Positions 1,059-45,534 of a stretch of 64,000 bases of DNA are shown piece by piece. The DNA lies in NCBI RefSeq assembly GCF_000429125.1, contig NZ_AUBG01000013.1, positions 124,001 to 188,000 on the forward strand, in the 5' to 3' direction. Positions within the stretch are counted from its first letter, which is position 1. Each line of letters starts with the position of its first letter. The translations under genes were made by a program, and so were the position numbers. The DNA is from Aequorivita capsosiphonis DSM 23843 (GTDB lineage: Bacteria > Bacteroidota > Bacteroidia > Flavobacteriales > Flavobacteriaceae). The notes under the pieces are model-generated. The model was not told the DNA's origin. It ran no database searches and was given only the letters and a program-made list of their open reading frames with translations.

Positions 1059-1093
1059 AGAGTAAAGAATAAAGAGAAAAGAGTAAAGAAAAA
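1059..1093. repeat. Heptamer array, purine-rich (5 units)
   Basis: Five consecutive 7-base units (AGAGTAA, AGAATAA, AGAGAAA, AGAGTAA, AGAAAAA) sit upstream of the four-helix-bundle gene. Its approximate reverse complement occurs just after that gene at 1489-1516, so the gene is bracketed by inverted arrays. Confidence 0.7.
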
Positions 1094-1128
1094 TCTGTAA
1101 TAGTTATTAATCCTTAAACTCACAAATT

Positions 1129-1488
1129 ATGACATTGAAACACAATTACAAAAACCTCAAAATTTGGAAGAAAGCTTTGAATATTGCATTTGATACTTCG
1201 GACATCTTAGAAACATTCCCTAAATCGGAACAGTATAATTTAACATCCCAAATGAGTCGATGTTCAATCTCTGCACCAAGTAATATTGCTGAGGGATCGG
1301 CAAGAACAGACAAATCGTTTAATCATTTTCTAGATATCTCCATGGAATCATCTTATGAATTAAGCACACAACTTTTGATTGCACATCACAAAAAATATAT
1401 TAATGATGAAGAGTTAGAAAAGTTGGAAGACACAATTACCGAATGGCAAATGATGACATCCGGTTTTCAAAAAACCTTACTGAAATAG
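1129..1488 (+). CDS. Four-helix-bundle protein (S23/IVS type)
   Basis: 119 aa, all helical, matching the four-helix-bundle family first found in 23S rRNA intervening sequences. The diagnostic block SQMSRCSISAPSNIAEGSAR lies at about residues 41-60 and is shared, with few changes, by the second copy at 18967-19329. No enzymatic motif is visible; the family is thought to bind nucleic acid or protein, and its role outside rRNA is unknown. It interrupts the VWA-ATPase pair and is bracketed by a purine-rich heptamer array (1059-1093) and a pyrimidine-rich one (1489-1516). That context suggests an inserted module rather than a functional member of the pair. Confidence 0.9.
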   Translation: MTLKHNYKNLKIWKKALNIAFDTSDILETFPKSEQYNLTSQMSRCSISAPSNIAEGSARTDKSFNHFLDISMESSYELSTQLLIAHHKKYINDEELEKLEDTITEWQMMTSGFQKTLLK

Positions 1489-1516
1489 TCTTTCTTCTTT
1501 CTTCTTTTCTCTTATT
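1489..1516. repeat. Heptamer array, pyrimidine-rich (4 units)
   Basis: Units TCTTTCT, TCTTTCT, TCTTTTC and TCTTATT start at the base after the four-helix stop codon. Read on the other strand they resemble the array at 1059-1093, giving the gene imperfect inverted flanks. Confidence 0.65.
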
Positions 1517-1527
1517 ATCTAAAAAAC

Positions 1528-2991
1528 ATGAAAATAGAAAACATAAAAACATTCGGTGACCTCAAGAAATCAGGTTACGAACCAAAATCAATTAAAGAAG
1601 AATTACGCCGAAATTTGCTTCAAAAAATTATGAAGAAGGAAGCACCTTTCGTTGGTATTCATGGATATGAACTTACCGTAATCCCAGAACTGGAACGCGC
1701 AATTCTTTCAAAACATAACATCAATCTGCTAGGTTTACGCGGACAGGCAAAAACGAGATTGGCTAGACAAATGGTTGGACTTTTAGATGAATATATTCCA
1801 GTGGTTGAAGGAAGTGAGATTAACGATGATCCTTTTAGTCCAATTTCCAGATACGCCAAAAATTTAATGGAGGAAGAAGGAGATAACACTCCAATTAGTT
1901 GGTTGCACCGCGATGATCGTTTTTCGGAAAAACTTGCAACTCCAGATGTTACTGTGGCTGATATAATTGGTGATGTAGATCCTATAAAAGCGGCTAATTT
2001 AAAATTGACTTATGCCGATGATCGCGTAATTCACTTCGGAATGATTCCGCGAAGTAATCGTTGTATTTTTGTGATAAATGAGCTTCCGGATTTACAACCG
2101 CGAATTCAAGTGGCACTTTTTAATATTCTACAGGAAGGGGATGTTCAAATTAGAGGTTTTGCCGTGCGCTTACCTTTGGATATTCAATTTGTTTTTACTG
2201 CAAATCCTGAAGATTACACCAACCGCGGAAGTATCGTTACGCCATTAAAAGATAGAATAGGCTCACAGATTTTAACGCATTACCCCGAAAATATAGAAAC
2301 GGCACGCACTATAACTGAACAGGAAACTGCGGGAGCAATTAAATCTAAGTCTAATATTTATGTGCCAGATCTCGCAAAAGATATATTAGAACAAATAAGT
2401 TTTGAAGCGCGTGAAAATGACTTTATTGATGCCAAAAGTGGTGTAAGTGCAAGGTTGAGTATCACAGCTTTTGAAAATTTATTGAGTACAGCCGAAAGAA
2501 GAGCCTTGCAAAATGAAGAGGAAAAGACTTCTATTAGACTGGGCGATTTTATTGGAATTATTCCTTCCATCACTGGGAAAATAGAATTAGTTTATGAAGG
2601 GGAACAGGAAGGTGTAAACCAAGTTGCGCAACAATTAATCGTTGATGCGGTGAACACTACTTTTAAGGAAATATTTCCTAAAATAGAGAAACTGACAAAA
2701 CAAGGTGATCCTGATCCGTATTCTGAAATTGTATCTTGGTTTTTTGAAGAAAATGATTTTGAATTACTAGATTCATATTCAAACGAAGAATATAGAAAGG
2801 AGTTGGATAGAATTATTCCTTTGCAACAATTAATTGATAAATATCAACCTGAAACTTCAAAAGAAGATGCTTATTTTCTAAAAGAAGTTATTTTATGGGG
2901 ATTGGCAGCAAACAATAAATTAAGTAAATTCAGTTTAGGGAACGGCCTTCACTTTAAAGATGTTTACGGTAGCTACATTAGCGGACTGTAA
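1528..2991 (+). CDS. MoxR/magnesium-chelatase-like AAA+ ATPase
   Basis: 487 aa. The Walker A loop GLRGQAKTRL is at about residues 68-77. The Walker B strand is FVINELPDL at about 180-188, with Asn-Glu instead of the usual Asp-Glu. The sensor region FVFTANPEDYTNRG and the arginine-rich PLKDRIG follow. The layout matches ATPases of the magnesium-chelatase BchI/MoxR branch, which remodel partner complexes through a VWA protein. That partner is encoded at 1-965, separated by an apparently inserted four-helix gene. No chlorophyll or cobalamin genes are nearby, so a chelatase role is unlikely. Followed by a strong bidirectional terminator. Confidence 0.88.
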   Translation: MKIENIKTFGDLKKSGYEPKSIKEELRRNLLQKIMKKEAPFVGIHGYELTVIPELERAILSKHNINLLGLRGQAKTRLARQMVGLLDEYIPVVEGSEINDDPFSPISRYAKNLMEEEGDNTPISWLHRDDRFSEKLATPDVTVADIIGDVDPIKAANLKLTYADDRVIHFGMIPRSNRCIFVINELPDLQPRIQVALFNILQEGDVQIRGFAVRLPLDIQFVFTANPEDYTNRGSIVTPLKDRIGSQILTHYPENIETARTITEQETAGAIKSKSNIYVPDLAKDILEQISFEARENDFIDAKSGVSARLSITAFENLLSTAERRALQNEEEKTSIRLGDFIGIIPSITGKIELVYEGEQEGVNQVAQQLIVDAVNTTFKEIFPKIEKLTKQGDPDPYSEIVSWFFEENDFELLDSYSNEEYRKELDRIIPLQQLIDKYQPETSKEDAYFLKEVILWGLAANNKLSKFSLGNGLHFKDVYGSYISGL

Positions 2992-3006
2992 ACTTTATAT
3001 AAATAG

Positions 3007-3043
3007 AAAAACCGTCTTGTACAATCAATACAAGACGGTTTTT
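3007..3043. terminator. Bidirectional intrinsic terminator
   Basis: A 15-bp perfect stem (3007-3021 with 3029-3043) and a 7-nt loop, with A-tract and T-tract arms. It lies between the convergent AAA+ ATPase gene (+) and LysM gene (-), so it can end transcription from both sides. Confidence 0.9.
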
Positions 3044-3069
3044 CTATTTTCAATACTATATTTCTATAA

Positions 3070-3450
3070 TTATGAAATATTTGGAATCACCAATTCATCA
3101 CCTGGATGAATAACGTCTGCTGATTTCAATTTTCCTTTGTTGGCTTCAAAAATAGTGTTGTACTTATTTGCGTCTCCATAGTAATGCTTGGCGATTTTAC
3201 TTAAGGATTCACCGCTTTTAACTGTGTGATGTGCATAGGCAGAAGTGTCTTCTACTTTTATATCAGCCATTATATCTGTTGGATTTTCGCCTCCAACTTT
3301 CTTGATTTCATCCCAAATCAGATTTTTATCATATTGGTTCTTTGCAGTTCCATGAATTTTCAGCTGTCCATTTTCCTCTTTTACATCACCATTTTTGATG
3401 TTCAATTTTTCACCTAGATCCAGAACGCTCTGGTATTTTGACTTGATCAT
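3070..3450 (-). CDS. BON-like/LysM peptidoglycan-binding protein
   Basis: 126 aa from the ATG at 3450. The frame stays open further upstream, but those 20 residues look unlike the family. A BON-like segment (about residues 15-65) precedes a C-terminal LysM domain (about 74-124: HHTVKSGESLSKIAKHYYG...IHPGDELVIP), which binds N-acetylglucosamine-containing glycans. The two-domain layout and length match the E. coli Kbp/YgaU family, reported as a potassium-binding protein. No signal peptide is visible. Single gene, convergent with the ATPase upstream. Confidence 0.88.
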   Translation of the reverse strand: MIKSKYQSVLDLGEKLNIKNGDVKEENGQLKIHGTAKNQYDKNLIWDEIKKVGGENPTDIMADIKVEDTSAYAHHTVKSGESLSKIAKHYYGDANKYNTIFEANKGKLKSADVIHPGDELVIPNIS

Positions 3451-3619
3451 TTTATATTTTTTTAGATTAGTTTTTAAAGATAATAGAATTTCACAATATA
3501 AATTTACCATTTAGAAAAATTTATAATTTAACCCAAGTATGTGATTATAAAACACAAAAAATGTGAATAATTTAACAATAACTGAATTAACGTTAATAAA
3601 TATTTTGATACAGTTAGAA

Positions 3620-3627
3620 TATCTTTG
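3620..3627 (+). promoter_or_regulatory. Bacteroidetes -7 box TATCTTTG
   Basis: TATCTTTG fits the TAnnTTTG consensus for the main sigma factor of this phylum and lies 27 bases before the fasciclin start. No convincing -33 TTG at the usual distance was seen. Confidence 0.6.
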
Positions 3628-3654
3628 TTCTAAATAATAAATCAACTATAAACT

Positions 3655-4284
3655 ATGAAACTAAAAACAATTGTAATGTCAATGGCAGTAGTAGCAATGC
3701 TTTTTGCTAGCTGTAACGACTCAAAAAAGAAAGAAGAAGCGCAGGCTCAAGCTGAACAAATGCGAATGCAGCGTGAGAGTGATTCTTTAATGAAATTAGA
3801 TGAAGAAAATAAAGGTAGAATGGCAGATATGGAAGCCAATTCAATTGCTGCTAAAGCAATGGGCAATTCTGATCTTTCTACTTTGGTGGGTGCACTTCAA
3901 GCTGCAGATTTAGCCGATACCTTTAAAGGTGAAGGAGAATACACTGTTTTTGCTCCAACAAATGAAGCTTTCAGCAAAGTTCCAAAAGCAACATTGGATA
4001 ACTTGATGAAACCAGAAAATAAGGAGAAATTGCAAGCTTTGCTTAAGTATCACGTTCTTCAAGGAAAAATGAATTCCACTGATGTTCTTGCAAAAATAAA
4101 AGATGCAGGAGGAAAATTAGACGTAACTACTTTAAATGGTGAGGTTTTAACCTTGTCTGAAAAAGATGGTAAAGTAATGGTGAAAGATGCTAAAGGAAAT
4201 ACAGCTACTGTAACTGGTGCTGATATGGACGCATCCAACGGTGTTGTACACACAATCGATAAAGTGTTGATGCCAAAAATGTAA
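3655..4284 (+). CDS. Fasciclin-domain lipoprotein
   Basis: 209 aa. The signal peptide ends in a lipobox with Cys20 (LFASC), so the protein is probably lipid-anchored. A charged, Gln/Glu/Met-rich helical linker (about 22-60) leads to one fasciclin (FAS1) domain at about 63-209, with the characteristic YTVFAPTNEAF and the C-terminal NGVVHTIDKVLMP. FAS1 domains mediate adhesion to cells or matrix. It is a single-gene unit with its own -7 box (3620) and a terminator at 4307-4332. Confidence 0.93.
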   Translation: MKLKTIVMSMAVVAMLFASCNDSKKKEEAQAQAEQMRMQRESDSLMKLDEENKGRMADMEANSIAAKAMGNSDLSTLVGALQAADLADTFKGEGEYTVFAPTNEAFSKVPKATLDNLMKPENKEKLQALLKYHVLQGKMNSTDVLAKIKDAGGKLDVTTLNGEVLTLSEKDGKVMVKDAKGNTATVTGADMDASNGVVHTIDKVLMPKM

Positions 4285-4306
4285 TTTACATTTTTCAATA
4301 GAAAAT

Positions 4307-4332
4307 AAAGCTCCAGAAATGGGGCTTTTTTT
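4307..4332 (+). terminator. Intrinsic terminator after fasciclin gene
   Basis: Stem AAAGCTCC (4307-4314) with GGGGCTTT (4321-4328), one G-T wobble, a 6-nt loop and a run of T. It overlaps the stop codon of the convergent ABC ATPase gene. Confidence 0.75.
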
Positions 4333-5002
4333 ATGATGAATTTTTACTGAGATAATTATGGTTTTTCAAGTCTTCCATGTTTGTTATACTGAAACCTTTT
4401 CCACCTTTGATAATTAGGTTCTTGGTGGTTATGTCTAGAACGTCATGATAATAATGGTCGGTTATCAAAATTCCTTTTTTCGATTTTAGTTCCTTTAGAA
4501 ACCTCTTAATCTCAATTTTGTATAAGGGTTCGATCATGGAGAATGGTTCGTCAAACATCAAAAATGGGTGATCGAGATTTCCAATTAGTAAAACTTCAAA
4601 ATAGCGCAATTCTCCCGCGGATAATTCTCCCACTTGATTAGCTGTGATTTTGGCAATTTGCGAATCGTAAAAAATGGCATCCTGCTTTTCTCCATCTGAG
4701 AAATAAATGGGGATTATATCTCGCACCTTCAAATTCTTCGGAAGCATTGAATTTTGCGGAAGATAACCTATGAGTTTTTTTGAGATAATTTCCGAAGATC
4801 TTATCGGTACATTATCTATTGAAACCGAAATGGAATCTGCCTTTACAGTTCCAAACAACATCTTCAATAAGGTTGACTTTCCGCTTCCGTTTCTTCCGAA
4901 AACACCTAATATTTCACCCGTAGATAAACTGAAAGCAATTTCTTCAATTACTTTCAGTTTACCAAAACTCTTGGTGGCGCTATGTAATTGTAAGGTTGCC
5001 AA
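4331..5002 (-). CDS. ABC transporter ATP-binding protein (orphan)
   Basis: 223 aa. Walker A GRNGSGKST (about 36-44), signature LSAGE (usually LSGGQ), Walker B FLMFDEPF, and the switch His in LITDHYY. The D-loop reads SMIEP instead of the common SxLD. The start is a TTG at 5002; the frame is closed by a stop just upstream and the first ATG falls inside Walker A, so TTG is the only workable start. The start lies 23 bases inside the upstream membrane-protein gene, which points to translational coupling. No typical ABC permease is present; the 102-aa protein may be the membrane partner. Substrate unknown. Confidence 0.88.
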   Translation of the reverse strand: MATLQLHSATKSFGKLKVIEEIAFSLSTGEILGVFGRNGSGKSTLLKMLFGTVKADSISVSIDNVPIRSSEIISKKLIGYLPQNSMLPKNLKVRDIIPIYFSDGEKQDAIFYDSQIAKITANQVGELSAGELRYFEVLLIGNLDHPFLMFDEPFSMIEPLYKIEIKRFLKELKSKKGILITDHYYHDVLDITTKNLIIKGGKGFSITNMEDLKNHNYLSKNSS

Positions 5003-5288
5003 TAAAAAATTTTACGATTAGAACTAAAATTCCGAAGAATGGAATTCCCAACAAAAGGTTTATTAAAAAGGAAACTCCCATTAATTTTAAACGGGTTAAG
5101 CCTAAGTTATAATAAAAATAAAACTGTTCCTTATAAACAATTCTAAATCCCAACATTCCAATAAATGGTCCTATGGTTGCAAAAAGCAGTACGGCCCACA
5201 GCAAACCTCCAAATGTAATGCAGGCCAGCGAAAATGCAGCAATAAACGGAAAAATGCTTTTATAAAACTGCCATTGGGCTCGGTACAT
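4980..5288 (-). CDS. Small membrane protein coupled to ABC ATPase
   Basis: 102 aa with about three hydrophobic helices (residues 11-33, 34-52 and 70-95) separated by an aromatic, charged loop (KEQFYFYYNLGLTRLKL). No known domain recognised. It overlaps the following ATPase gene by 23 bases, so the two are almost certainly co-expressed and may form a complex. Too small for a classical permease but big enough for a membrane anchor. Confidence 0.75.
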   Translation of the reverse strand: MYRAQWQFYKSIFPFIAAFSLACITFGGLLWAVLLFATIGPFIGMLGFRIVYKEQFYFYYNLGLTRLKLMGVSFLINLLLGIPFFGILVLIVKFFIGNLTIT

Positions 5289-5307
5289 TTTTTAAAGTTA
5301 GTGTTAT

Positions 5308-8300
5308 TTATTGACAGCTACATCCGCCATCCATAAATCCGTGGGTTTCTTGATGCCAAGGAAAGGCTTGATTGTATTTTTCCATCTCCCAGAAAAAAGG
5401 AAGGCGCTCTTTTGGGTTATTACCAATTTCATTCATAGTTTCGGTATCGTATAACCTCCCATTAATCATCACCATTTCTATGCTTAAGGTGTTTTCTATA
5501 TCTTCTAAGGGATTTTCATCCATCACTATTAAATCTGCAAGTTTCCCCACTTTTAAAGAGCCGATATCATTTCCGGCACCAATATATTCGGCAGAATTGA
5601 TTGTCGCGGCTTTTAGCGCCTCCAAACTACTCATTCCACCTTGTTGTAACATCCAGGTTTCCCAATGCGCTCCCAAACCTTGTAATTGGCCGTGAGCTCC
5701 CATGTTTACCTTCACTCCAGCATCTTGTAAAGATTTTACGGTTCTAGAAACTAACTTGTGGCCGTTGTCATATTCTTCGGCTGGAACTTTTACTCTATGA
5801 CGAGAGCGACTATCAATAATACTGCGCGGGGTAAATGTGAGCAGCTTTTCATTTTCCCAAACATTGTCTCTTTCATAAAAGTAAATTTCGCCGTTCATTC
5901 CACCATAGTTTACAATTAGAGTAGGAGTATAGCCAGAATTGCTTTTGCCCCAAACTTCCAAAATATCTTTGTAAACCGGTGCAACGGGTATGTTGTGTTC
6001 AATGCCTGTGTGGCCATCGATAACCTCGGTTATATTATGATAAAAAGTTGAACCGCCTTCGGGCACTACGTTTATTTCAAGTTCGCGCGCTGCTTGTAAA
6101 ATTTGTTGACGCTGCTCTCTTCGCGGTTGGTTATAACTCTTTACGCTTTTTGCACCAAAAGCTTTTGTTCTTCTAATGCTGCTTCGGGCGTCTTCAAGGT
6201 TGTTGATTACAGCTTTAAAATCACCTTCTGCGCCATAAAGTATAAATCCAGTGGAAAATAATCGCGGCCCAACTAATTGTCCGCTTTTTTGAAGTTCAGA
6301 TAACGTGAAAACCGTTTCGGTATTGGCTGAGGGATCGTGAGAAGTTGTTACTCCAAACGCTAAATTTGCCATAAACGGCCAGTATTGTTGCGATGGCAAA
6401 CCGTATCTAAATGCGCCAACGTGAGCGTGCGCATCAACCATTCCCGGCATAATGGTTTTTCCTTTACCATCATAAACTGTTGTTCCTGAAGGAATGGAAA
6501 TATCATCCATATTCCCAACTGCCTCAATCTTACTTTCGTTTATAAGAATGGTACCGTTTTCAATAACCTTATCATTTTCCATAGTGATGATACGCGCATT
6601 GGTAAAGGCAATTCTTCCCGAAGGCTTATCAACCGGTGCGGTCAAGCCAATTTTTATTCCATCTAATTTTACTTCGGAAACTTTTTCTGGGGAATCTTTT
6701 AAGAAGGTAAAACTGTTTTTCAACTCATTGCTGAAATATTCGTCGCCCAAAGTCCACATTAATTTTTTACTATTTGGAGCCCAATGGATATTAATTCCGG
6801 CATCTTTTGCAAGTTCTGAAACGGGAACGGATTTGCTGTTGTTATCTAAGTTTACAGTTTGACCATTCATTACCAACGGAGCAACAAAAAGTTTATGAAG
6901 ATTGGTAAATGCGATCCAATTGTTATCTGGACTTGGGATAAGTCTATTTGCATATTTTGAAGTGATATGAACTTTTTCATCTTCCCCTTCACGATTTACG
7001 CTTATCAATTTTTTCTCTAAAGCACCAAAATAAGTGCCGCCCAATTGTAGAAATATTCGTTGGCCGTCTTTGCTAAATAGTGGGTATTCGCCTTCTTCGG
7101 TAACAAATTTTTCATTTTTACCAGAAGAATCCATTATGTAGATTCCCTTGTTTTTGGTGTAAGTAAAACCTTGATCGGTATTTCCGCCTTCTTTCATATA
7201 GGCGATATGATTCCCATCCTGCGAATAAGAAGGCATTCTATAAATTCCTTTTTCCGAAGTGAGTTTTACAGCTGTTCCACCTGCAGCTGGAATTTTAAAT
7301 ATGGCACCTTTTTCCAGATCATTCCAGGTAACATAGACTATATCATTTCCATTGGGTGAAAATGCAGGCTCGAACTCAAAATCGGAAGTTTCAGTCAATC
7401 TTTGTGGTTCCCCATTGGGCAATGTTTTTTTGTATAAATTTCCAAGCGCACTAAAAACAATATACTTTCCGTCTGGAGAGGTTGCCGTGTGGCGAATCAT
7501 TTTTGGAGTAAAAGTTTCGGTTTCAATTTTATTGTTGAAATGAACGGTTTCTGCTAAATCGATATTTACATCAGCCGTAAACGGAATGTTTGTTACAGCT
7601 AGCGTATTTATATCAATTTTGTTGATTTTTCCGCCGCTCCAAAAAACGATTTCTTTGCTATTCGGCATCCAGCTAAAGTTTGGATAAACCCCGAAAATGG
7701 CCCAAGCTTCTTGCTGATCCTTGTTTAAAGCATCGTAAATTGGCCATTCCTTCCCCGTTTCCAAATCTTGGATAAAGAGTACACTTTTGGTTCGCACGCG
7801 CTTAACGAACGCCAACTTTTTACCATCGCGAGAAAGCGTTGGTCTTGCAGCTCCTCCAGGGCCACCAGTTATTGTTTTGGTTTCGCCAGTTTCAAAATCG
7901 TAACGTTTAACAACGTAAATCTGGCTGTTTGGATCTTTGTTATACTGAAAATTTCCACCTGGGTACATATCTTCACTGTAATAAACATATTTTCCGTCGG
8001 GAGAAGTAAAAGGTTCATTTACATCTTGTTGGTCGTTTTTGCGCTTTGTGATTTGAAGTCCGGTACCGCCAGTAATATGATATTGCCAAATTTCACCCGC
8101 ACCTAAACTTCTGCCAGATGAAAAGTGTTTACGCACTAAAAGATAATTGCCATCTGCGCTCCAAACAGCGTTGTTCAATAATCTGAAATCCTCCTTGGTT
8201 ACTTGTTTGGCATCGGTTCCATCTAGATTCATTGTCCAGATATTATCGCCACCTCCAGCATCGCTGGTAAATGATATTTTAGAACCGTCAGGGCTAAAAC

Positions 8301-10363: not shown

Positions 10364-10369
10364 AAACAC

Positions 10370-12699: not shown

Positions 12700-12743
12700 G
12701 CAAACTCTGCGCCATAATTTACAGTATTCAGTTTTTTGGTGAT

Positions 12744-12778
12744 CAGAAATCAGTTATCAGTGTTCAGTAATCAGTGAC
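12744..12778. repeat. Heptamer array CAGTNNN (5 units)
   Basis: Five consecutive 7-mers: CAGAAAT, CAGTTAT, CAGTGTT, CAGTAAT, CAGTGAC. Non-coding, between two divergent-content minus-strand genes; further degenerate units continue to about 12792. Confidence 0.7.
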
Positions 12779-12827
12779 AGTTTTCAGTGATCGAGAATTG
12801 AGGGGTTGAATTACCAATATAAGATCT

Positions 12828-17437: not shown

Positions 17438-17645
17438 TGACATACGACTTAAAAAGCTTGCGCTTTTTTGACTTACGACGTACGACTAGATTTATATATT
17501 TATTATTATTTTATTCGTTGTTTTGAGGTACGACTTAAAAAGTTTGCGCTTTTTTGATTTACGATTTACGACTGTTTTTTCAAAAAGTTTAAAATTCAAT
17601 CGTACGTCGTAAGTCAATTTGCGATAGCAAACTAGTCGTAAGTCC
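17438..17645. repeat. REP-like element R1 in fadA-fadE spacer
   Basis: Two direct half-units (17438-17487 and 17525-17572) share ACGACTTAAAAAG.TTGCGC followed by TACGA words. An inverted half-unit follows (17600-17645, CGTACGTCGTAAGTC then TTGCGATAGCAA). Each half has an internal hairpin; the outer heptamers (GACTTAC, GACGTAC) pair with the inverted half. Relatives occupy the other two spacers around the four-helix gene. Confidence 0.8.
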
Positions 17646-18849: not shown

Positions 18850-18960
18850 GTGCGATTTTTGACGTATGACTGAAAACCTTCGGTTTTTGACTTACGACCT
18901 ACGACAAAATGAAAAAGGGGTCGTAGGTCATTTTGCCAAAGGCAAAATCGTCGTAGGTCT
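18850..18960. repeat. REP-like element R2
   Basis: Heptamers GACTTAC, GACCTAC and GACAAAA (18889-18909), followed by the inverted GTCGTAGGTC (twice) around a TTTTGCCAAAGGCAAAA hairpin (18931-18947). It fills the spacer between the four-helix gene and fadA. Confidence 0.8.
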
Positions 18961-18966
18961 TTTTTT

Positions 18967-19329
18967 TTAAATTGTTAAACTGTTTATAAATCGTGTTATC
19001 ATTCCTTGAATCCGTTGAATTTTATTTTCCAAATGCTTAAAAGTTTCTTCTGAAATATAATCTATTTCAAAAGCAATAATTAATTGCGTTTCCCACTCAA
19101 AAGCTGAGCCTAAAGCTGTTTCAAGATATGTTTTAAAATGTTTATCTGTTCCTCTTGCAGTACCTTCTGCAATATTCGAGGGAATTGAAACTGAACATCG
19201 TTGCATTTGGCTACTCAAACCATACATCTCAGATTTTGGAAATATTTTGGTAGTTGCATAGGTATCTTTAGCTATTTCAATCCCTTCTTTCCAAATTGTC
19301 ATTTTTCTAAAATTATGATTTGCTCCCAT
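18967..19329 (-). CDS. Four-helix-bundle protein, second copy
   Basis: 120 aa of the same S23/IVS-type family as 1129-1488. The block SQMQRCSVSIPSNIAEGTAR differs from the first copy at few positions, but the remainder is diverged, so this is not a recent duplicate. It sits inside the fad operon between fadN and fadA, has no plausible metabolic role there, and is bracketed by REP-like elements R2 and R3. Start ATG at 19329. Confidence 0.92.
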   Translation of the reverse strand: MGANHNFRKMTIWKEGIEIAKDTYATTKIFPKSEMYGLSSQMQRCSVSIPSNIAEGTARGTDKHFKTYLETALGSAFEWETQLIIAFEIDYISEETFKHLENKIQRIQGMITRFINSLTI

Positions 19330-19357: not shown

Positions 19358-19484
19358 ATTTGACATACGATTTAAAAAGCTGCGCTTTTTTGACATACGA
19401 CCTAAGATTTATCTTGAAATATTTAAAATTATTTTGTCGTAGGTCGTAAGTCAAATTGCGATAGCAATTTTGTCGTAAGTCATA
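19358..19484. repeat. REP-like element R3
   Basis: TGACATACGA, an AAAAAGC-TG-CGCTTTTTT-like hairpin and TGACATACGACCTA, followed by the inverted GTCGTAGGTCGTAAGTCAA and a TTGCGATAGCAA hairpin. It fills the fadN to four-helix spacer and shares words and layout with R1 and R2. Confidence 0.8.
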
Positions 19485-21994: not shown

Positions 21995-22038
<44 letters not shown>

Positions 22039-22527: not shown

Positions 22528-22583
22528 CAAAAATATATTATGCACGCATAGTATATTTGTTTGTTTTTTATAAAGAGTTGATT

Positions 22584-22758
22584 AGTGCCTCGATAAAATT
22601 TTGTAGTGCCTCGATACAATTTTATAAAGAGGAATTTTTAAATTAGTTTTTAACGGATTAGCACAAAATCACTCGGCAACCTTGCCTCGATACAATTTTG
22701 TGGATAGAGAGTAGGAGTATTGTTTTATACGTATTGGCACAAAATCACTCAGCAACCT
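22584..22758. repeat. 76-bp tandem repeat with conserved ends
   Basis: Units 22605-22680 and 22681-22756 have equal length and align without gaps. Both begin with TGCCTCGATACAATTTT and end with GCACAAAATCACTC.GCAAC; the centres have diverged. A third partial copy of the left box is at 22584-22603. The two end boxes are themselves imperfect inverted repeats (TGCC...ATTTTGT against ACAAAAT...GGCA). It lies upstream of the marR promoter. Confidence 0.85.
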
Positions 22759-36832: not shown

Positions 36833-36849
36833 GAAGAGAAAAAGGAAAT

Positions 36850-36884
36850 TAGAAAGTGGAAAATAGAAAGTAGAAAGAGGAAAG
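36850..36884. repeat. Heptamer array TAGAAAG (5 units)
   Basis: TAGAAAG, TGGAAAA, TAGAAAG, TAGAAAG, AGGAAAG, followed by ATGTAC-GTTGTAC-GTC. Lies between two gene fragments. Confidence 0.7.
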
Positions 36885-38723: not shown

Positions 38724-38764
38724 TAGAAAAGAACGGAAGTTATAAATTTTTCAAAATCATTCTT

Positions 38765-40111
38765 ATGAAAAATATACTCTTACATAATAAAACCCCTCGT
38801 AGTTTAAGCGGCATATTTCTGCTGTTGATGTTACTTGCTAATACCGTAGAACTGATGGCTCAAGACAAAAAAGATTTTTTATCGGCAAAGGAAAGTGAAC
38901 CCAGTAATTTTGGATGGATGGCAGACTTCCCCCCTTCCAATGATAAAACCATAAGCGCCAAAGATGGTTCTTATCTTCATTTCCCTGAACTCAGATGGAG
39001 TGTTGTAAATATGCGGAAACTGATGCCTACAACGGAAGTTACACCGAAATTAGCACCACCACAAGCCTTTGACTATGCGCTGGATAAAAATATAGATTCG
39101 CTAACTTTTCTTCCTTGGGAAGCAAAGGAGAAGATGACTTGGAAAGAATCGCTTGCAAAAAACTACACCGACGGGATGCTCATTTTGCACGATGGGAAAA
39201 TAGTTTATGAAAATTATTTTAGCGCGATGGATGAGACCAAAGTTCACGCTGTGTTTTCGGTCACTAAATCTTTTGTGGGAACTTTGGCAGGAATTCTTAT
39301 TGCTGAAGGGAAATTGGATGAAACCAAAACCGCTTCCTTTTATGTTCCAGAGTTGAAGAACTCTGCTTTTGAAGATGCCACGGTGCGTCAGATATTAGAT
39401 ATGACTACATCCGTTGAATACAGTGAGGATTATGCTGATCCAGATGCTGAGGTTTGGGAGTTTTCCGATGCTGGAAATGCGTTGATCAAAGCTAAAGGCG
39501 ATAAAGAACCAGTTGGGTATTATGCCTTTTTGGAAACCGTAAAGAAAAAAGGACCTCACGGAAAAGCCTTTAAATATAAAACCGTAAATGCACAGGCTGC
39601 CGGCTGGATTATAACACGTGCTACCGGAAAATCCATTGCTGAATTGTTATCTGAAAGAATATGGAGCAAAATAGGGATGGAGCAGGAAGCTAATTTGATG
39701 GTCGATGCTAAAGGAATTCCATTTTCTGGAGGTGGTTTAAGTGCCGGACTTCGAGATTTAGCTCGTTTTGGAGAGTTGATGCGCAACAAAGGAAACTGGA
39801 AAGGAGAGCAGCTATTTCCTAAAGAAGTGGTGGAAACCATTATGAATGGTGCCAGCAAAGAAGATTTTGCAAAATCGGAACACCCCGGACTAAAAGGATG
39901 GTCTTATAAAAATTTATGGTGGATTACAGAAAATGAAGACGGTGCCTATGCAGCTCGTGGCATTTATGGCCAGACCATCTATATCGATCCGGCAGCCAAA
40001 ATGGTCATTGTACGACTGGCTTCATACCCCGTTGCTGCCAATGCTGCTAACGATGCTACTTCATTGCCGGCGTATCAAGCGGTTGCGGATTATTTGATGA
40101 AGAAAAAATAA
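38765..40111 (+). CDS. Exported NylB-like serine hydrolase 2
   Basis: 448 aa paralogue of the preceding gene, 41 bases downstream. Nucleophile Ser165 (SVTKS), YSEDYADPDAE, and WWITENEDGAYAARGIYGQ. Signal peptide ends ...ELMAQ. Coding identity is high at both ends and lower in the middle, where the substrate loop is (TPKLAPPQAFDYALDK against RGLGAPNPLEYNLDK), suggesting duplication followed by divergence in specificity. Same operon as the flavoprotein at 40151. Confidence 0.9.
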   Translation: MKNILLHNKTPRSLSGIFLLLMLLANTVELMAQDKKDFLSAKESEPSNFGWMADFPPSNDKTISAKDGSYLHFPELRWSVVNMRKLMPTTEVTPKLAPPQAFDYALDKNIDSLTFLPWEAKEKMTWKESLAKNYTDGMLILHDGKIVYENYFSAMDETKVHAVFSVTKSFVGTLAGILIAEGKLDETKTASFYVPELKNSAFEDATVRQILDMTTSVEYSEDYADPDAEVWEFSDAGNALIKAKGDKEPVGYYAFLETVKKKGPHGKAFKYKTVNAQAAGWIITRATGKSIAELLSERIWSKIGMEQEANLMVDAKGIPFSGGGLSAGLRDLARFGELMRNKGNWKGEQLFPKEVVETIMNGASKEDFAKSEHPGLKGWSYKNLWWITENEDGAYAARGIYGQTIYIDPAAKMVIVRLASYPVAANAANDATSLPAYQAVADYLMKKK

Positions 40112-40150
40112 TAACAGCAATCTAGATCTTTAAACTTAAAGTATTTATTG

Positions 40151-41782
40151 ATGAAAAAAGAAATAGCAATTGTTGGAGGCGGTATATCTGGATTGGTCTC
40201 TGCCTTCGAGCTTAGTGAGAATTCAGAATTGGATATTACTATAATTGAAGCCAGTGATTCCTGCGGCGGAAAAATGAAAGGCTATTTTAATAAGAAAACC
40301 AATCGGTTTGAAGAACATTCTATCCGCGCCTTGGGTTCTACCTATTTTGCGCTTTTTGATGTTTTTTATCGCGCAGGTATGTTGGATGTTTTAACCGCCG
40401 TAGATGAATACATTTTTTATGAAAGCAAATCGGGTAAAAAAGTCGCTATAGATCGTACCGAATCCATAAAGTTTGAAACATTTAAGGAGCTGGTTAGTAC
40501 TTTCGACTTATCCTTGACCGATATGATGAGTTTGGCGAAAAAAATTGCCCATCACGTTAATGCATCTGATGAGGAACGTGAAAAACAATCCCATCAAAAA
40601 GCAGGAGACGTTATCGGTATCGATGATTTTGATGAACATACGCGACAGTTTATCATCAACTGGTTTGGGATCCTTACGGGTGCGCGGATGGAAAGTAAGG
40701 CAGTGGATATTATGGACAGTTTCGTATTGATGTTTCTGCCGATGACCGAGAGTCCACAGCTGCCGCCGGGAAAACACTCAAAATCGTATTGCTTTAATCG
40801 GCCTACTTCGGAAGTGATTGAGCTATTGGTTAAAAAATTAGAAGAGCGTGGAGTAAAATTCAGCTATAATACTCGTTTTGAAAATATTGATCAAGATGCG
40901 GCTTCAAAAAAGATAAAACTCAAGACAACGGGTGAAATTTTAGAAAAAAATGAATTTGACGCGTGCATCATTGCGGTTCCACACGAAACAATGTGGAAAG
41001 TAGGTTTGCTAAAAGGGGTTAAAAAACCCTTTGATGATGAATGGTCATTTGGATCCCAGTTTCCTATGGCAGTTTTACCGGAAGCTTTGGTTCCTTTTAA
41101 AGGGAAATCCTATAATCTGAGTTTTGATGCGCCTTGGAACATTGTTTTTCAAATTCAGCATAAAGAAGGATTTTGGAAAGATGTGAATTTTTCAAAATCC
41201 AAACCTTATAATCTCTCTGCAACCTGTAGTTCCCCGTTTAATGAAGGTTCTCTTTATGGGAAACGATTTATGGAATGCACCCCCGAAGAAAGCCTACACG
41301 AAATTCTATTTCAATTGGGAATAACGGAGGAAGCAGAAAGAAAACCCCTTGTCGATAATGCTGTAGTTGATCCTATCTATCTAGAATATACGAAGGAATG
41401 GAAGCAACACGCAAATTTGGAAACGGCAGAACTGGGGATTCTCCAAAATAATGATCACAGGTGGGTAGATTTTTCACAAATTTACGTTCGCTCTGCGGAG
41501 GATAAAGAAATAGTGTCAAAAACGGAAATGGAAGGTGTTTATTTAGCTGGGGAAGTGGTTAGCGTTCCCGGAAGATGGAAAATACCAACGATGGAACAAG
41601 CATCTATGTCCGGAAAACAAGCCGCTCAGGAGGTATATCATTACTTAAAAATGGACAGGAAGGTAAATATGGAATATGCCACCTTATCCTCTACAAAAGG
41701 CTATAAACTAATGGAAGGAATTTTAGCTGGGCTTACTGCACTCTCTAAATTAATTCCTCATAAAAACAAAGAAAAAGAATAG
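40151..41782 (+). CDS. FAD-dependent oxidoreductase
   Basis: 543 aa from the ATG at 40151 (a TTG directly before it is in frame). Rossmann FAD motif IVGGGISGLVSAFEL at the N-terminus, then IIEASDSCGGKMKG, and a C-terminal FAD contact GVYLAGEVVSVPGRWKIPTMEQASMSG. This is the layout of the amine oxidase/phytoene desaturase superfamily, resembling hydroxysqualene dehydroxylase-like proteins rather than any defined enzyme. No signal peptide, so cytoplasmic. It follows the two hydrolases in one operon and probably acts on their product. Confidence 0.85.
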   Translation: MKKEIAIVGGGISGLVSAFELSENSELDITIIEASDSCGGKMKGYFNKKTNRFEEHSIRALGSTYFALFDVFYRAGMLDVLTAVDEYIFYESKSGKKVAIDRTESIKFETFKELVSTFDLSLTDMMSLAKKIAHHVNASDEEREKQSHQKAGDVIGIDDFDEHTRQFIINWFGILTGARMESKAVDIMDSFVLMFLPMTESPQLPPGKHSKSYCFNRPTSEVIELLVKKLEERGVKFSYNTRFENIDQDAASKKIKLKTTGEILEKNEFDACIIAVPHETMWKVGLLKGVKKPFDDEWSFGSQFPMAVLPEALVPFKGKSYNLSFDAPWNIVFQIQHKEGFWKDVNFSKSKPYNLSATCSSPFNEGSLYGKRFMECTPEESLHEILFQLGITEEAERKPLVDNAVVDPIYLEYTKEWKQHANLETAELGILQNNDHRWVDFSQIYVRSAEDKEIVSKTEMEGVYLAGEVVSVPGRWKIPTMEQASMSGKQAAQEVYHYLKMDRKVNMEYATLSSTKGYKLMEGILAGLTALSKLIPHKNKEKE

Positions 41783-41883
41783 GCAGCTGTCGATAATGTT
41801 TATCAAATCCTTAGATATCAATTGCACGACATAGCGATTTTGATCATCCAAGTTACTTTATAGCTTGAATATTTAATTTCAGC

Positions 41884-41990
41884 TTGCGTTAGGGATAGCA
41901 GTGGAAAGCCCACAGCGATCCCGATTTTTATCGGGGGAGCGAGGACTTGGAACGGATAGCCCGACCCGCTTTTCGCGGGTAACGCCCTAA
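41884..41990. repeat. Structured dispersed flavobacterial element
   Basis: Begins TTGCGTTAGGGATAGCAGTGG and ends GGGTAACGCCCTAA. GCGTTA (41886-41891) pairs with TAACGC (41980-41985). Inside are two hairpins: CCCGAT-TTTT-ATCGGG (41920-41935) and ACCCGC-GCGGGT (41964-41980). This text is familiar from many flavobacterial intergenic regions and may correspond to a described RNA motif (possibly Flavo-1), which I cannot confirm here. With the heptamer array it accounts for the gap 41783-42093. Confidence 0.65.
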
Positions 41991-42056
41991 AAATCATTAT
42001 TCTCACTTTAAAATATATTGCATTTTTAGGAAGTATAATTTTGTCTTACCGCTTAA

Positions 42057-42091
42057 GTCTCACATCTCACGTCTCACATCTCAAGTCTAAA
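42057..42091. repeat. Heptamer array GTCTCAC/ATCTCAC (5 units)
   Basis: GTCTCAC, ATCTCAC, GTCTCAC, ATCTCAA, GTCTAAA, ending just before the symporter stop codon. Confidence 0.8.
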
Positions 42092-42093
42092 AA

Positions 42094-44181
42094 TCAAGCT
42101 TTCCGAAACTTTTCACTTACATACAATTGTCCCTTTTTAAGTTTTTCTAGATAAGAATTCATATCTGCATAAATTTCAGGAGCTAGAATGTATAATCCAG
42201 CGATGTTTGGAAAGGACATTGCCAAAATCATCATATCGGCAAAGCTTAGCACGGCACCTAGACTTACGGAAGCTCCTAGCACCACAAAGCCTAAATACAT
42301 AAATTTGTATAGTAATTCTCCTTTTTTGCTTCGTCCGAATAAATACGTCCAAGAACGCATTCCGTAATAAGACCAAGAAACCATTGTGGAGAATGCAAAT
42401 AGAAACACGGCGATGGCTAGCACTACCGGAAACCACGAAACTACACTTCCAAAAGCAGCGGAAGTAAGTTCTACACCGCCCATACCGAGATTCCCTTCGT
42501 GTTTACCAGTAAAGATTAGGACTAAGGCGGTCATAGTACACACCACCATAGTATCGATAAAAGGTTCAACGATGGAGGTAAATCCATCGGCAATAGGATG
42601 ATTTGTTTTAGCCGGACTATGGGCAATTGCTGCGGAACCAACGCCGGCTTCACTTGAAAATGCAGCCCGTTGCAGACCAACAATCAACACTCCAATAAAC
42701 CCACCTTTTAATGCATCGGCAGAAAAGGCACCTTCAAAAATCGCTAAAAATGCACCTCCGATGCCTTCTATATTAGAACCAATAACAACCAAACAACCTA
42801 CGATATATAAGATTGCCATAACGGGCACAACTTTTTCGGTAACCTTGGCGATACTCTTTATTCCACCAATAATTACGATCCCAACAAGTGTTGCGAAGCC
42901 AATTCCGAACCAGAAACCTTGTCCTTGAAGAATAGGAATTTGTTCTGAAACTATCTTAAATGCCTGGTTTGATTGTAGCATATTTCCGCCACCAAAAGAG
43001 GCTCCTACACCTAAAATCGCAAAAAATGCGGCAAGGAATTTTCCTAAACGCTTAAGATTTCGTTTTTCAAGACCGTACCTCAAATAGTTCATCGGGCCAC
43101 CAAAAACACGTCCGTCTGCATCGATAAACCGATATTTCACACCCATGGCACATTCGGCAAATTTCATCGACATTCCAAAGAAACCGGCCATAAACATCCA
43201 AAATGTAGCCCCTGCACCTCCTAGGGAAATTGCCACGGCAACCCCGGCAATATTTCCTAAACCTACCGTTGCCGATACGGCTGTTGCCATAGCCTGAAAG
43301 TGCGTGATGCTTCCCGGCGCATTTGGATCATCATATTTTCCTCTTGCCAAATCAATGGAATGCCGAAACCCGCGAATATTGATAAACTTTAATCGAATAG
43401 TAAAGAAAATACTGCCCAAGATCAACCAAATAACAATAAAGGGAATGGTATTGGTCACCACTTCACCATTTGGATATAATAGAGGCTGGGGTTTTTTAAA
43501 ATCTACCCGACCCAGTTTAAGCTCTTCTGCTGAGGATGCCTTGGAGCTTGGGGTAATAAGTGTTCCTTCCGCAACTAAATGATGTAGTTTTCCGTCAAAG
43601 ATCGCGTGTAATACTGTTTCCTCTCCATCAATTTCAAGAAGTGCAATCTCTTGCTTTTCGGTTATCTGCGCTCCTTCTGGCACCAACCATTTTTTAAGTA
43701 GGTAGTTCTCGTGTTCCGTATCTGAATGTGGGGGAGCAATATCTTCGTGAGAAATATAGACTACTGGATCGTAAACACCGAGGGAAGCGAATGGATCCCA
43801 AAACAGAATAGCACCGAGAAAATCTACTGCAGGTTGTACATTGCTGTTAAAAACCTCTACGATGGATTCCGCTGGAATATTAAAAGACTCAGAGACGGTG
43901 TTTCCGTTGGCGTCGGTTACCGTTACCGAATGCTGCATCCCTTCAATTAAACCTGTGGAAACCTTAGATCTTAGAGATGTGGAAGTATTGCTCCATTTGT
44001 ATTGGTATGGAGATGTTCCGCCTACTACTTGTACTTGGGCGATTGCGTCATTGATTTCGGAAGAAGGGTTTTTTAATTCTAGATTGATGGATAATTCATC
44101 ATTGGAATTTCCATTGTTTTGAGCATTTGAAGTTGTTATTAGAATTAATGAAGTGAAGAGAAAAAATAGTGATTTGATCAT
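42094..44181 (-). CDS. Na+:alanine symporter with periplasmic extension
   Basis: 695 aa, longer than typical AGCS symporters (about 450-550). Residues about 250-690 form the AGCS transporter (ATAVSATVGLGNIAGVAVAI, GFFGMSMKFAECAMGVKYR, FSSEAGVGSAAIAHSPAKT). The N-terminal 250 residues are extra: a signal peptide, a SprB/PKD-like beta domain (GGTSPYQYKWSNTS... VTVTDANGN), then a biotinyl/lipoyl-like hammerhead fold (VPEGAQITEKQEIALLEIDG...) without the modifiable Lys. Probably imports alanine, glycine or a related amino acid with sodium. Upstream gap 44182-44617 holds a heptamer array and a -7 box. Confidence 0.9.
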   Translation of the reverse strand: MIKSLFFLFTSLILITTSNAQNNGNSNDELSINLELKNPSSEINDAIAQVQVVGGTSPYQYKWSNTSTSLRSKVSTGLIEGMQHSVTVTDANGNTVSESFNIPAESIVEVFNSNVQPAVDFLGAILFWDPFASLGVYDPVVYISHEDIAPPHSDTEHENYLLKKWLVPEGAQITEKQEIALLEIDGEETVLHAIFDGKLHHLVAEGTLITPSSKASSAEELKLGRVDFKKPQPLLYPNGEVVTNTIPFIVIWLILGSIFFTIRLKFINIRGFRHSIDLARGKYDDPNAPGSITHFQAMATAVSATVGLGNIAGVAVAISLGGAGATFWMFMAGFFGMSMKFAECAMGVKYRFIDADGRVFGGPMNYLRYGLEKRNLKRLGKFLAAFFAILGVGASFGGGNMLQSNQAFKIVSEQIPILQGQGFWFGIGFATLVGIVIIGGIKSIAKVTEKVVPVMAILYIVGCLVVIGSNIEGIGGAFLAIFEGAFSADALKGGFIGVLIVGLQRAAFSSEAGVGSAAIAHSPAKTNHPIADGFTSIVEPFIDTMVVCTMTALVLIFTGKHEGNLGMGGVELTSAAFGSVVSWFPVVLAIAVFLFAFSTMVSWSYYGMRSWTYLFGRSKKGELLYKFMYLGFVVLGASVSLGAVLSFADMMILAMSFPNIAGLYILAPEIYADMNSYLEKLKKGQLYVSEKFRKA

Positions 44182-44222
44182 TAAGGTTTACTGGGTTTTA
44201 TGAGATTAGATTAATCGTATCT

Positions 44223-44272
44223 GGGTAAGACTTAAGACCGTTGCGCTATTGGACGTAAGACGTAAGACTAAA
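44223..44272. repeat. REP-like element with heptamers GACGTAA
   Basis: GTAAGACTTAAGACCGTTGCGC followed by GACGTAA, GACGTAA, GACTAAA (44252-44272). Same vocabulary and order as R1-R3 in the fad operon but only a half-unit. Confidence 0.6.
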
Positions 44273-44577
44273 TGGCTACTCAATTAATGTTTTTTTGAAA
44301 TTATGTAGCCTGAATATTACTCCAAGTAGGAATGATACTAAAAGTATTGTTATAGACTATATTAAATAATTCACGAAAAATCGCAATTTAGCCATAAGTA
44401 GGAGTTCTCCAAAGCTATTTCTTTGTTTTCTTGTGTTTATCGCTATTGTTCTGGAAAAATTTAGTTGTAAATTCCTTGTTTTTCTCGCTTATTTTTAGCG
44501 CTATTATTAGATGTATTTAAGCTGTTAAATTATGTTTAAGATTAAGACGTCTCAACAGATTCCGTAGCTGGAAAGCT

Positions 44578-44585
44578 TACCTTTG
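44578..44585 (+). promoter_or_regulatory. -7 box TACCTTTG of the HdhA-like SDR
   Basis: TAnnTTTG match 33 bases before the ATG at 44618. Confidence 0.5.
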
Positions 44586-44617
44586 AGACTATTAGTAATT
44601 AAAACACACATCATATT

Positions 44618-45397
44618 ATGGATATCTCAAAACATTTTGATTTAAAAGGAAAAACGGCAGTAGTAACTGGCGGAGCAGGCGGAATAGGAAAAGCTTGCTG
44701 CGAGATGCTAGCTGCTTATGGAGCAAATGTCGTTGTTTCAGATTATAATCTGGATGCGGCTAAGGAAACTTCAAAAGCAATAAACGATAATGGCGGAACA
44801 TCAATCGCGATAGATTGTAATGTACTTGAAGACGATGCGCTTATTAATTTAGTAGATAAAACTGTTGAAAAATTTGGTAGCATCGAGATCTTAGTAAACA
44901 ACGTTGGTGGCGGTGGCGCAGGAAAAGAAAGTCCGTACGATATTGAGGTAGCCCAATTTAAAAAAGTCTTTGAAATGAACGTTTTTAGTATGTGGCGTCT
45001 TTGCCAATTAGTGGCTCCACATATGAAAAAAGCCGGTTACGGAAGTATTATCAATATGTCTTCAATGGCTTCCATTAACAAGAGTCCTGCTATTAGTGCT
45101 TATGCATCTTCAAAAGCAGCGATCAACCATATGACACGTAATTTGGCCTTTGATTATGGCCCAGATAATATCCGTATCAACGCCATCGGGCCTGGAGCAA
45201 CAAGAACACACGCGTTGAGTACTGTGCTTACTCCAGAATTGGAAAAAGCAATGCTAAAGCATACACCGATCCACAGACTTGGAGAAGCGGAAGATATTGC
45301 TGGCGCCGTATTATATTTTGCAGCACCAATTTCAAGCTGGACCAGTGGCCAAGTTATTTTTGTAAATGGCGGGGGAGAGCAGACTTTGGATATGTAG
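44618..45397 (+). CDS. SDR resembling 7-alpha-hydroxysteroid dehydrogenase
   Basis: 259 aa classical SDR: TGGAGGIGKAC, NNVGGGG, active-site MSSMAS and YASSKAAINH. The phrases VVVSDYNLDAA, NVFSMWRLCQLVAPHMKKAG, LTPELEKAMLKHTPIHRLG and SSWTSGQVIFVNGGG follow E. coli HdhA (7-alpha-hydroxysteroid dehydrogenase) closely along the whole length, so a sterol-like or alicyclic hydroxyl is a reasonable substrate. A decayed fragment of a close relative is at 32350-32443, so the gene has been copied within the region. Confidence 0.9.
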   Translation: MDISKHFDLKGKTAVVTGGAGGIGKACCEMLAAYGANVVVSDYNLDAAKETSKAINDNGGTSIAIDCNVLEDDALINLVDKTVEKFGSIEILVNNVGGGGAGKESPYDIEVAQFKKVFEMNVFSMWRLCQLVAPHMKKAGYGSIINMSSMASINKSPAISAYASSKAAINHMTRNLAFDYGPDNIRINAIGPGATRTHALSTVLTPELEKAMLKHTPIHRLGEAEDIAGAVLYFAAPISSWTSGQVIFVNGGGEQTLDM

Positions 45398-45403
45398 TGT
45401 AAA

Positions 45404-45534
45404 ATGGACATAAGACGATAGGACTTACAACTGGAGGACGTATGACATACGACATAAGAGAAATTTTAATGTTCCACGAGTCTTACATCCTCTAGTCCTA
45501 CGTCTTACGCGCTGCACTGAGCTTGTCGAAGTGT
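45404..45534. repeat. REP-like heptamers and GCACTGAGCTTGTCGAAGTG
   Basis: GACGTAT, GACATAC, GACATAA (45437-45457), with inverted CGTCTTACGC text near 45500. The well-known dispersed motif GCACTGAGCTTGTCGAAGTG follows at 45514-45533. Non-coding; with the terminator below and the leader at 45622 it accounts for the gap 45398-45782. Confidence 0.7.

Follow-up and report, generated by a model that had tools for sequence, protein, structure and literature searches.

Heptamer arrays of Aequorivita capsosiphonis as a probable signature of small intergenic mobile elements related to rRNA intervening sequences

Small intergenic mobile elements akin to the intervening sequences (IVS) of rRNA genes are in our view the best explanation (with a probability of roughly 0.7) for the common 7-base period of eleven short non-coding arrays found in a 64,000-nucleotide stretch of the genome of Aequorivita capsosiphonis DSM 23843 (contig NZ_AUBG01000013.1, positions 124,001 to 188,000; hereafter the window). 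The eleven arrays reduce to about five words. Two of these words form the arms of elements that carry a gene for the 23S rRNA-intervening sequence protein (IVP; PF05635, TIGR02436), and one of the two also forms the arms of gene-less elements. As envisaged here, an IVP element would consist of two inverted arms, composed of degenerate 7-base words (8-base words in some lineages), which enclose either a short loop or a single gene of about 120 codons, whose predicted product is the four-helix-bundle intervening-sequence protein (PF05635).

Results

The occurrence of short periods was analyzed in the window and in another twenty stretches of this genome, each of 20 kb (464 kb in total, including 63,895 intergenic bases; open reading frames (ORFs) were called by a simple longest-ORF rule). 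At a segment score of at least 10, the intergenic DNA contained 31 period-7 segments, compared to 1.0 in dinucleotide shuffles, while periods 5, 6, 8 and 9 were represented by 2, 3, 3 and 0 segments, respectively; periods 14 and 21 were also high, as harmonics of 7. Period 7 is thus enriched over 6 and 8, a check that had been proposed in an earlier note on this DNA, made from the sequence alone. Without the window, the twenty stretches still contained 25 period-7 segments (0.7 in shuffles), and 400 kb of coding DNA contained 4. With 25 arrays in 54.7 kb of intergenic DNA, this genome is unusually array-rich, far above most of the 19 other Bacteroidota genomes sampled. A genome of the same family (G080; G and L numbers are our own designations of genomes and loci) yielded 5 arrays in 5.0 kb.

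Period 7 was reported by Tandem Repeats Finder (TRF) for seven of the eleven arrays (1059, 1489, 12744, 22001, 36850, 42057 and 44252), whereas the other four (17470, 18889, 19436 and 45437) fall under its score but contain the 17-base sequence GACNTANGACNTANGAC. The earlier note had described eleven unrelated words, which is not what was found. A single degenerate word, GACNTAN, is common, in either orientation, to the arrays at 17470, 18889, 19436, 44252 and 45437, in which the unbroken array amounts to 2.4 copies only. When reverse-complemented, CTACTTT (22001) is a rotation of TAGAAAG (36850), and the arrays at 1059 and 1489 show an inverted match to each other. The argument of the note that a shared period with different words requires more than one decaying element was nevertheless right. 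A common GA core in the array words was an impression gained by eye, and was dropped.

Two pairs of arrays (1059 with 1489, and 18889 with 19436) are inverted arms that enclose two IVP genes, referred to as elements 1 and 2, respectively. The products of both genes score above the cut-off for PF05635 and TIGR02436, and the best PDB match of the window IVP is 2gsc, which is XCC0516 of X. campestris. Both elements are located between protein genes, and not in 23S (or 16S) rRNA, and their arms enclose no transposase gene. The A. capsosiphonis genome contains 11 PF05635 matches and the 28 genomes of the genus 5 to 21 each (317 in total). At least one match was present in 75 of 99 Bacteroidota genomes (including that of A. 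capsosiphonis); none was detected in 14 control genomes, and phage records gave no IVP match. Three of the 11 matches (L107, L114 and L115) contain an internal stop codon, and all three still lie between arrays.

The flanks of the IVP genes of A. capsosiphonis carry short-period arrays that are mostly inverted, as judged by eye, and whose word differs at most genes; those at L114, a broken gene, seem to be in direct orientation. Arms were scored by alignment of the upstream flank to the reverse complement of the downstream flank, a gene being considered armed at a score of at least 16. Seven of the eight genes scored in this genome reach this value, and the eighth (L106, with an 8-base unit upstream) reaches 15. 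Of 85 full IVP ORFs from various genomes, examined with 250-base flanks, 62 are armed, compared to 16 in direct orientation, 2 of 81 with shuffled partners, and 15 of 226 other ORFs of 90-200 codons (a control that includes neighbours of IVP genes). An enlarged set of 141 genes, examined with 160-base flanks, showed inverted arms at 98, compared to 4 of 141 with shuffled partners. By source, the armed genes comprise 79 of 98 from the genus, 12 of 29 phylum-wide, 6 of 13 from plasmids and the only one of other origin; the phylum-wide count is 13 of 29 in the first set because of the longer flanks used there. The loci in both sets are best-scoring, listed or syntenic matches, not random ones, with orthologous copies included; partial IVP ORFs, identical proteins and loci with short flanks were dropped (which reduced the first set from 95 to 85).

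IMG/VR virus contigs, fetched after these sets had been compiled, carried arms at 23 of 27 IVP loci, compared to 46 of 702 mismatched partners. The best period was 7 at 24 of the 27, at 22 of which it scored at least 8 above shuffles. Four proteins identical to retained ones had been removed from the original 31 loci, and near-identical arms are still present among the 27 (L307/L308 and L309-L311).

Of the 21 IVP matches on plasmids, 14 were read, namely 13 in cyanobacteria and one in Azospirillum. A score of 16 is reached by 8 of the 14 when 250-base flanks are used; at one of these (L181) the direct match is stronger. The cyanobacterial genes are flanked on both sides by heptamer arrays, which at 7 of the 13 loci are inverted (score at least 16), and the comparison with cyanobacterial heptamers drawn in the earlier note is therefore apt. 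Arm words on the plasmids include GTAGGGA, GGTGACA and GGGAAAA, all three in cyanobacteria, and GGGTGTA. The arm type of the Azospirillum locus (L177), GACNGAK, is near the heptamer GACAGAT given for the Coxiella IVS in PMC4990558. On three cyanobacterial plasmids the IVP gene is annotated among CRISPR genes (L178:883-1251, L181:895-1254 and L188:898-1254), in the order cas6-IVP-cas4 in Anabaena sp. 90 and Pseudanabaena galeata, and cas10-IVP-cmr3 in Picosynechococcus PCC 7003.

Both the arm word and the period (7 or 8) follow the lineage of the IVP protein. Among 105 armed elements, the dominant period was 7 in 72, 8 in 20 and 6 in 1, with no period in 12; in the shuffled-arm control, 100 of 105 were without any period. 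Period-7 and period-8 elements coexist within one genome. When placed on a quick IVP tree (based on 122 columns; 39 of its 102 inner branches are open), the 7/8 label of 92 rows changes 6 times, compared to a mean of 18.4 and a minimum of 14 in 300 label shuffles. The arm words were compared between pairs of elements at different sites, i.e. without matching outer flanks, as defined by a blastn comparison of the sequence outside the arms, over up to 350 bases (pairs with at least 65% identity were inspected individually). The word was common to 23 of 34 pairs with at least 70% protein identity, 5 of 42 at 60-70%, 15 of 245 at 50-60%, and 17 of 4,992 below 50%. Word-sharing pairs at 50% identity or more thus numbered 43 of 321, the maximum in 2000 arm permutations being 19. 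Examples include IVPs with GACNTAN arms at two neighbouring sites, both present in G027, and IVPs with AGTATTG arms, found at two loci whose flanks differ. Joint inheritance of gene and arms suffices to produce such a pattern, which by itself is no proof of recognition.

The structure of the GACNTAN arm was determined from 30 loci, representing 20 distinct sites according to our own grouping. The arm is a 17-mer, preceded in 11 of the 20 sites by an extra 10-mer, usually at a distance of 15 or 23 bases, and it contains free positions. An inverted motif occurs within 300 bases after the 17-mer in 8 of the 20 sites. In the two arms of one element the word is kept, while the free positions differ.

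At syntenic sites in 20 relatives, the arrays either form inverted pairs, which enclose a small ORF or a short loop, or are missing. The site of element 1 was readable in 27 of the 28 genomes of the genus. An IVP gene with similar arms is present in four (those of the window, G007, in which the gene has an internal stop, G008 and G025) and absent from the other 23, which contain the arms only (G004), a 3-base spacer (7 genomes) or spacers of 28-118 bases (15 genomes). An IVP match was found between genes gB and gD in 11 of 21 genomes; of the ten IVP-less spacers, nine are more self-inverted than all 20 shuffles. In two genomes (L093 of G019 and L102 of G023) the gB-gD spacer contains a GC-rich self-inverted piece of the CTCCCCCAAAGGGGGAG type, unlike the heptad arms. 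At the neighbouring gA-gB site, 11 of 21 genomes likewise have an IVP match, which in some cases is broken or shortened; six others have an IVP-less spacer of 84-284 bases, which in five scores above all shuffles, and the spacer of the remaining four measures 29-32 bases. Six genomes have a run of the word TTCCTAA between gD and gE, which is interrupted in one of them and exact in the other five (3.3, 3.6, 4.6, 7.7 and 10.6 copies). Same-site arrays of relatives, whose comparison was the second check proposed in the earlier note, therefore do differ, whether in word, in copy number or in the presence of any element.

The relationship of solo arrays to these elements was approached through their words. 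Those of 29 sampled arrays (all except the arrays of the two window IVP elements, and thus not solo arrays only) were compared with 294 arm words, and 22 were found exactly among them, compared to 12.9 expected from letter shuffles (maximum 20 of 500). When one mismatch was allowed, 29 were found and 28.9 expected, i.e. there was no discrimination. One solo array of the genome sample (L046:14250-14300) is built of GACAGAT.

Discussion

The mobility of IVP elements is suggested by their distribution, namely (i) the presence, absence and replacement by different elements at the same sites, and (ii) the occurrence of one IVP lineage, with its word, at different sites. The mover would be supplied in trans. 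Because word and period follow the IVP protein, this protein is the obvious candidate reader of the arms. It may recognise the words in the arms round its own gene; this would keep both arms alike while the words drift between lineages. Arms-only copies, single arms and solo arrays would then be derivatives, in which slippage changes the copy number. A wider proposal is that the code read by IVP proteins is a drifting one of 7 or 8 bases, with each lineage recognising its own arm word; the gene would then make up, with its arms, a mobile unit that recognises itself, and the heptamer arrays of cyanobacteria, Bacteroidota and proteobacteria would be the footprints of this unit. We put this forward tentatively, as a possibility on the doubtful side of even.

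Several observations weigh against an origin of the arrays from IVP elements. Arms were below the threshold at 43 of 141 IVP genes, including 17 of 29 phylum-wide and 7 of 13 from plasmids, and two IVP-bearing gA-gB spacers (G008 and G015) are not more self-inverted than shuffles. Relatedness inflates the counts, since many of the elements are orthologous copies. Of 37 sampled arrays lying at least 700 bases from the end of a stretch, only 5 passed a strict test for an inverted partner, and long perfect arrays are mostly solo. Since so few partners were found, and the word test with one mismatch is uninformative, the descent of solo arrays from elements is something that we infer. Across 19 other genomes, the density of period-7 arrays was not clearly related to IVP number, with 0 arrays in 23.7 kb from nine genomes without IVP (a small sample) and 6 in 44.1 kb from ten IVP-rich genomes (p 0.096), all six coming from two of the ten. 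The copy number of GACNTAN is not clearly linked to the presence of a GACNTAN-type IVP (at least 70% identity; p 0.072), and three genomes without such an IVP have 38, 39 and 52 GACNTAN matches, the one with 39 having a shortened copy. Close IVP proteins sometimes carry different words, and words can therefore change faster than the protein. Target duplications were not readable in same-site comparisons, as the empty sites are too diverged at their junctions.

Two candidate movers were considered and rejected, and their patchy occurrence also counts against the proposed mobility. A match to reverse transcriptase (RT) was present in only 9 of the 28 genomes of the genus, and two of the 19 genomes without a match have 21 IVP matches each; nothing therefore points to the template-driven enzyme suggested in the earlier note. 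Y1 transposase, including the transposases associated with repetitive extragenic palindromic (REP) sequences (RAYT), had no match in 9 of the 28 genomes (three of the nine under 90% complete), other transposase families not having been searched. RT is also relevant to the Avd protein of diversity-generating retroelements. The protein encoded at 1129-1488 shows weak similarity to the bAvd and DivGenRetAVD profiles, but its scores (23.4 and 23.9 bits) lie far below the cut-offs (40 and 80, respectively), the 18967-19329 protein matches neither profile, and the rarity of RT in the genus is a further difference.

The earlier note had suggested that the arrays may reflect one copying process, such as slippage, acting on many seeds. 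A single genome-wide process with a 7-base step can be set aside, because lineages of period 7 and period 8 coexist, in step with the IVP tree, and because the arms are inverted pairs round a gene. Slippage deserves closer attention. In this explanation, that of Mrazek and co-workers 2007 (as quoted in PMC4679880 and PMC4692102), any seed word may be expanded by a polymerase with a preferred 7-base step, the period being set by the DNA segment that the polymerase holds. The dominance of period 7 over 5, 6, 8 and 9 fits such a process, as do the frequent perfect solo arrays and the variable copy number of TTCCTAA at one site, from 3.3 to 10.6 exact copies. It is indeed very likely that slippage alters the copy number of the arrays. 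By itself, however, it leaves unexplained the inverted pairs, which surround one gene family, and the lineage-bound words. Nor does it account for period-7 and period-8 elements that occur in one genome and track the IVP tree, for the lack of period-7 arrays in the (small) sample from nine IVP-free genomes, or for GACNTAN arms, which are a 17-mer, often with a 10-mer, containing free positions rather than exact copies. As the whole explanation, slippage is therefore unlikely.

A role at the level of RNA is more doubtful still. Here the arms would form a stem in the transcript, cut by RNase III as in rRNA IVS, and the need for this structure would keep the arms alike. RNase III excises the Coxiella IVS (PMC4990558), and, when folded as RNA, the two arms of the same element pair better (median -50.1 kcal/mol) than shuffled partners (-31.5 kcal/mol). 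If the stem were selected, G-U-compatible changes should be favoured in sense RNA; the differences between arms comprise 133 G-U-compatible and 169 incompatible transitions (binomial p 0.044, in the wrong direction), besides 509 transversions, and selection for a sense-RNA hairpin was accordingly rejected. Arms that keep their word and differ at free positions, with no preference for G-U, look more like the result of word recognition than like a selected stem.

A reading of the arms as REP-like or IS200/IS605-like sites, mobilised by a Y1 (RAYT) transposase together with a passenger IVP gene, is very improbable: small hairpins are visible by eye between GACNTAN blocks and 19 of the 28 genomes have a Y1 match, but G006, with 17 IVP matches, is among the nine that have none, and each arm is built of successive heptads instead of one hairpin. 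Least credible is the view that the arrays are post-transcriptional or transcription-factor sites of the host to which IVP genes are merely adjacent (cf. MacGregor for TAACTGA repeats), as the intergenic placement of the arrays, the recognition suggested by a degenerate fixed motif such as GACNTAN, and the position of TAACTGA arrays mostly just ahead of start codons in one Beggiatoaceae genome (PMC4679880) are opposed by gene pairs that differ between relatives in word, lack any array or contain an IVP insertion, and by the fact that the word follows the IVP lineage.

Heptamer arrays have been noted in bacteria since about 1990 and were ascribed to slippage, regulation or G-quadruplexes; those of cyanobacteria are known as short tandemly repeated repetitive (STRR) sequences. 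Among known transposable elements, miniature inverted-repeat transposable elements (MITEs) and foldback transposons combine inverted ends with gene-less copies, and the ends of foldback transposons are built of tandem short repeats. The terminal inverted repeats and gene-less copies in the window (17439-17644 and 45407-45550) resemble MITEs, but IVP elements, unlike these or foldback transposons, contain no transposase and vary in arm sequence from one element to another.

The rRNA IVS are among the systems closest to IVP elements. As described in PMC4990558, the IVS of Coxiella and Leptospira encode S23p, carry inverted terminal repeats and have been called a selfish element, perhaps mobile; in Coxiella, tandem GACAGAT heptamers, whose number varies between strains, precede the S23p gene. 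The window elements share with them the protein family (PF05635, TIGR02436) and the inverted terminal repeats, but are located between protein genes, in genomes with several PF05635 genes each, have lineage-specific arm words and include gene-less copies. With the STRR and TAACTGA repeats, the window arrays have in common that they are intergenic tandem 7-base words. The published arrays, as far as the accessible parts of their descriptions go, are tied to no gene family, whereas those described here, also on cyanobacterial plasmids, flank IVP genes. The genus Aequorivita, to which the nearest named relatives of a window protein belong at 3 of 4 loci, is already on record for such arrays: Aequorivita sublithincola has been listed with TAACTGA and other heptamer arrays (PMC4679880). 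PMC4692102 reports three heptanucleotides of Calothrix, as well as GGGAATC heptamers of Xanthomonas and GGGGA(C/T)T of Nostoc, which have period 7, are mostly intergenic and are discussed as G-quadruplex formers. In two Xanthomonas genomes, 70 and 75 cases of two opposite-orientation arrays close together were recorded in that source, in the accessible text of which neither "S23" nor "four helix" was found. A search of the literature outside most subscription journals revealed no link between heptamer arrays outside rRNA and IVP genes.

The intervening-sequence protein is common and without known function (PMC4990558). Linking it to the arrays makes both testable, as the arrays gain an origin and the protein a candidate substrate. 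If IVP proteins do read their own arm word, this small family would provide nucleic-acid readers whose specificity varies in nature and whose step is 7 or 8 bases. In any case, annotation would gain, as arrays beside genes for a "four helix bundle protein" could be recorded as one element.

Other features of the window

The coordinates of the elements and arrays are presented in Table 1. The two arms of element 2 give an inverted match with a score of 28. The gene-less element at 17439-17644 has a self-inverted score of 22 (shuffle maximum 18), and an IVP match occurs at the same site in 11 of 21 genomes. No inverted partner of the single arm at 44229-44268 was found within 700 bases (inverted score 7, random maximum 8). 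The site of the perfect array at 21998-22036 is occupied in relatives by other words or by 9-10 bases. An Rfam search of the window gave no match, and a search for tRNA genes found none.

Table 1. Coordinates of IVP elements and period-7 arrays identified in the window.
Feature	Position	Strand	Evidence
Upstream arm of IVP element 1, word AAAGARN (array 1059)	1043..1093	+	TRF period 7; inverted match towards 1489, score 17 (random maximum 15)
IVP gene of element 1 (23S rRNA-intervening sequence protein / four helix bundle protein)	1129..1488	+	PF05635 E 5.3e-30; TIGR02436 E 5.6e-28
Downstream inverted arm of element 1 (array 1489)	1489..1513	-	TRF; inverted match towards 1043-1093, score 13 (random maximum 11)
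Solo array, word CAGTNAT	12739..12792	+	TRF; inverted partner not found
IVP-less inverted element, GACNTAN arms (array 17470)	17439..17644	.	10-mer 17439; 17-mer 17470-17486; inverted 10-mers 17606, 17635
Left GACNTAN arm of element 2 (array 18889)	18861..18959	.	10-mer 18861; 17-mer 18889-18905; inverted 10-mers 18920, 18950
IVP gene of element 2	18967..19329	-	PF05635 E 3.7e-37; TIGR02436 E 4.4e-35; PDB 2gsc_A E 1.2e-19
Right GACNTAN arm of element 2 (array 19436)	19392..19481	.	10-mer 19392; inverted 17-mer 19436-19452; inverted 10-mer 19472
Solo perfect array TTTCTAC x5.6	21998..22036	+	TRF; strict partner test; same-site comparison
Solo array, word of 21998-22036 on opposite strand	36834..36883	+	TRF; inverted score 12 (random maximum 15)
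Solo array GTCTCAC	42055..42088	+	TRF; partner not found; word among IVP-element arm words
Single GACNTAN arm (array 44252)	44229..44268	+	10-mer 44229; 17-mer 44252-44268
IVP-less inverted GACNTAN element (array 45437)	45407..45550	.	Forward motifs 45407, 45437, 45444; inverted 45480, 45495, 45541

A 21-base unit, TAGTGCCTCGATAAAATTTTG, with no visible heptamer build, is present twice at 22583-22623 (95% matches by TRF). The right arm of the element at 45407-45550 contains a palindromic 19-base stretch (45515-45533), which we take to resemble a REP-like motif.

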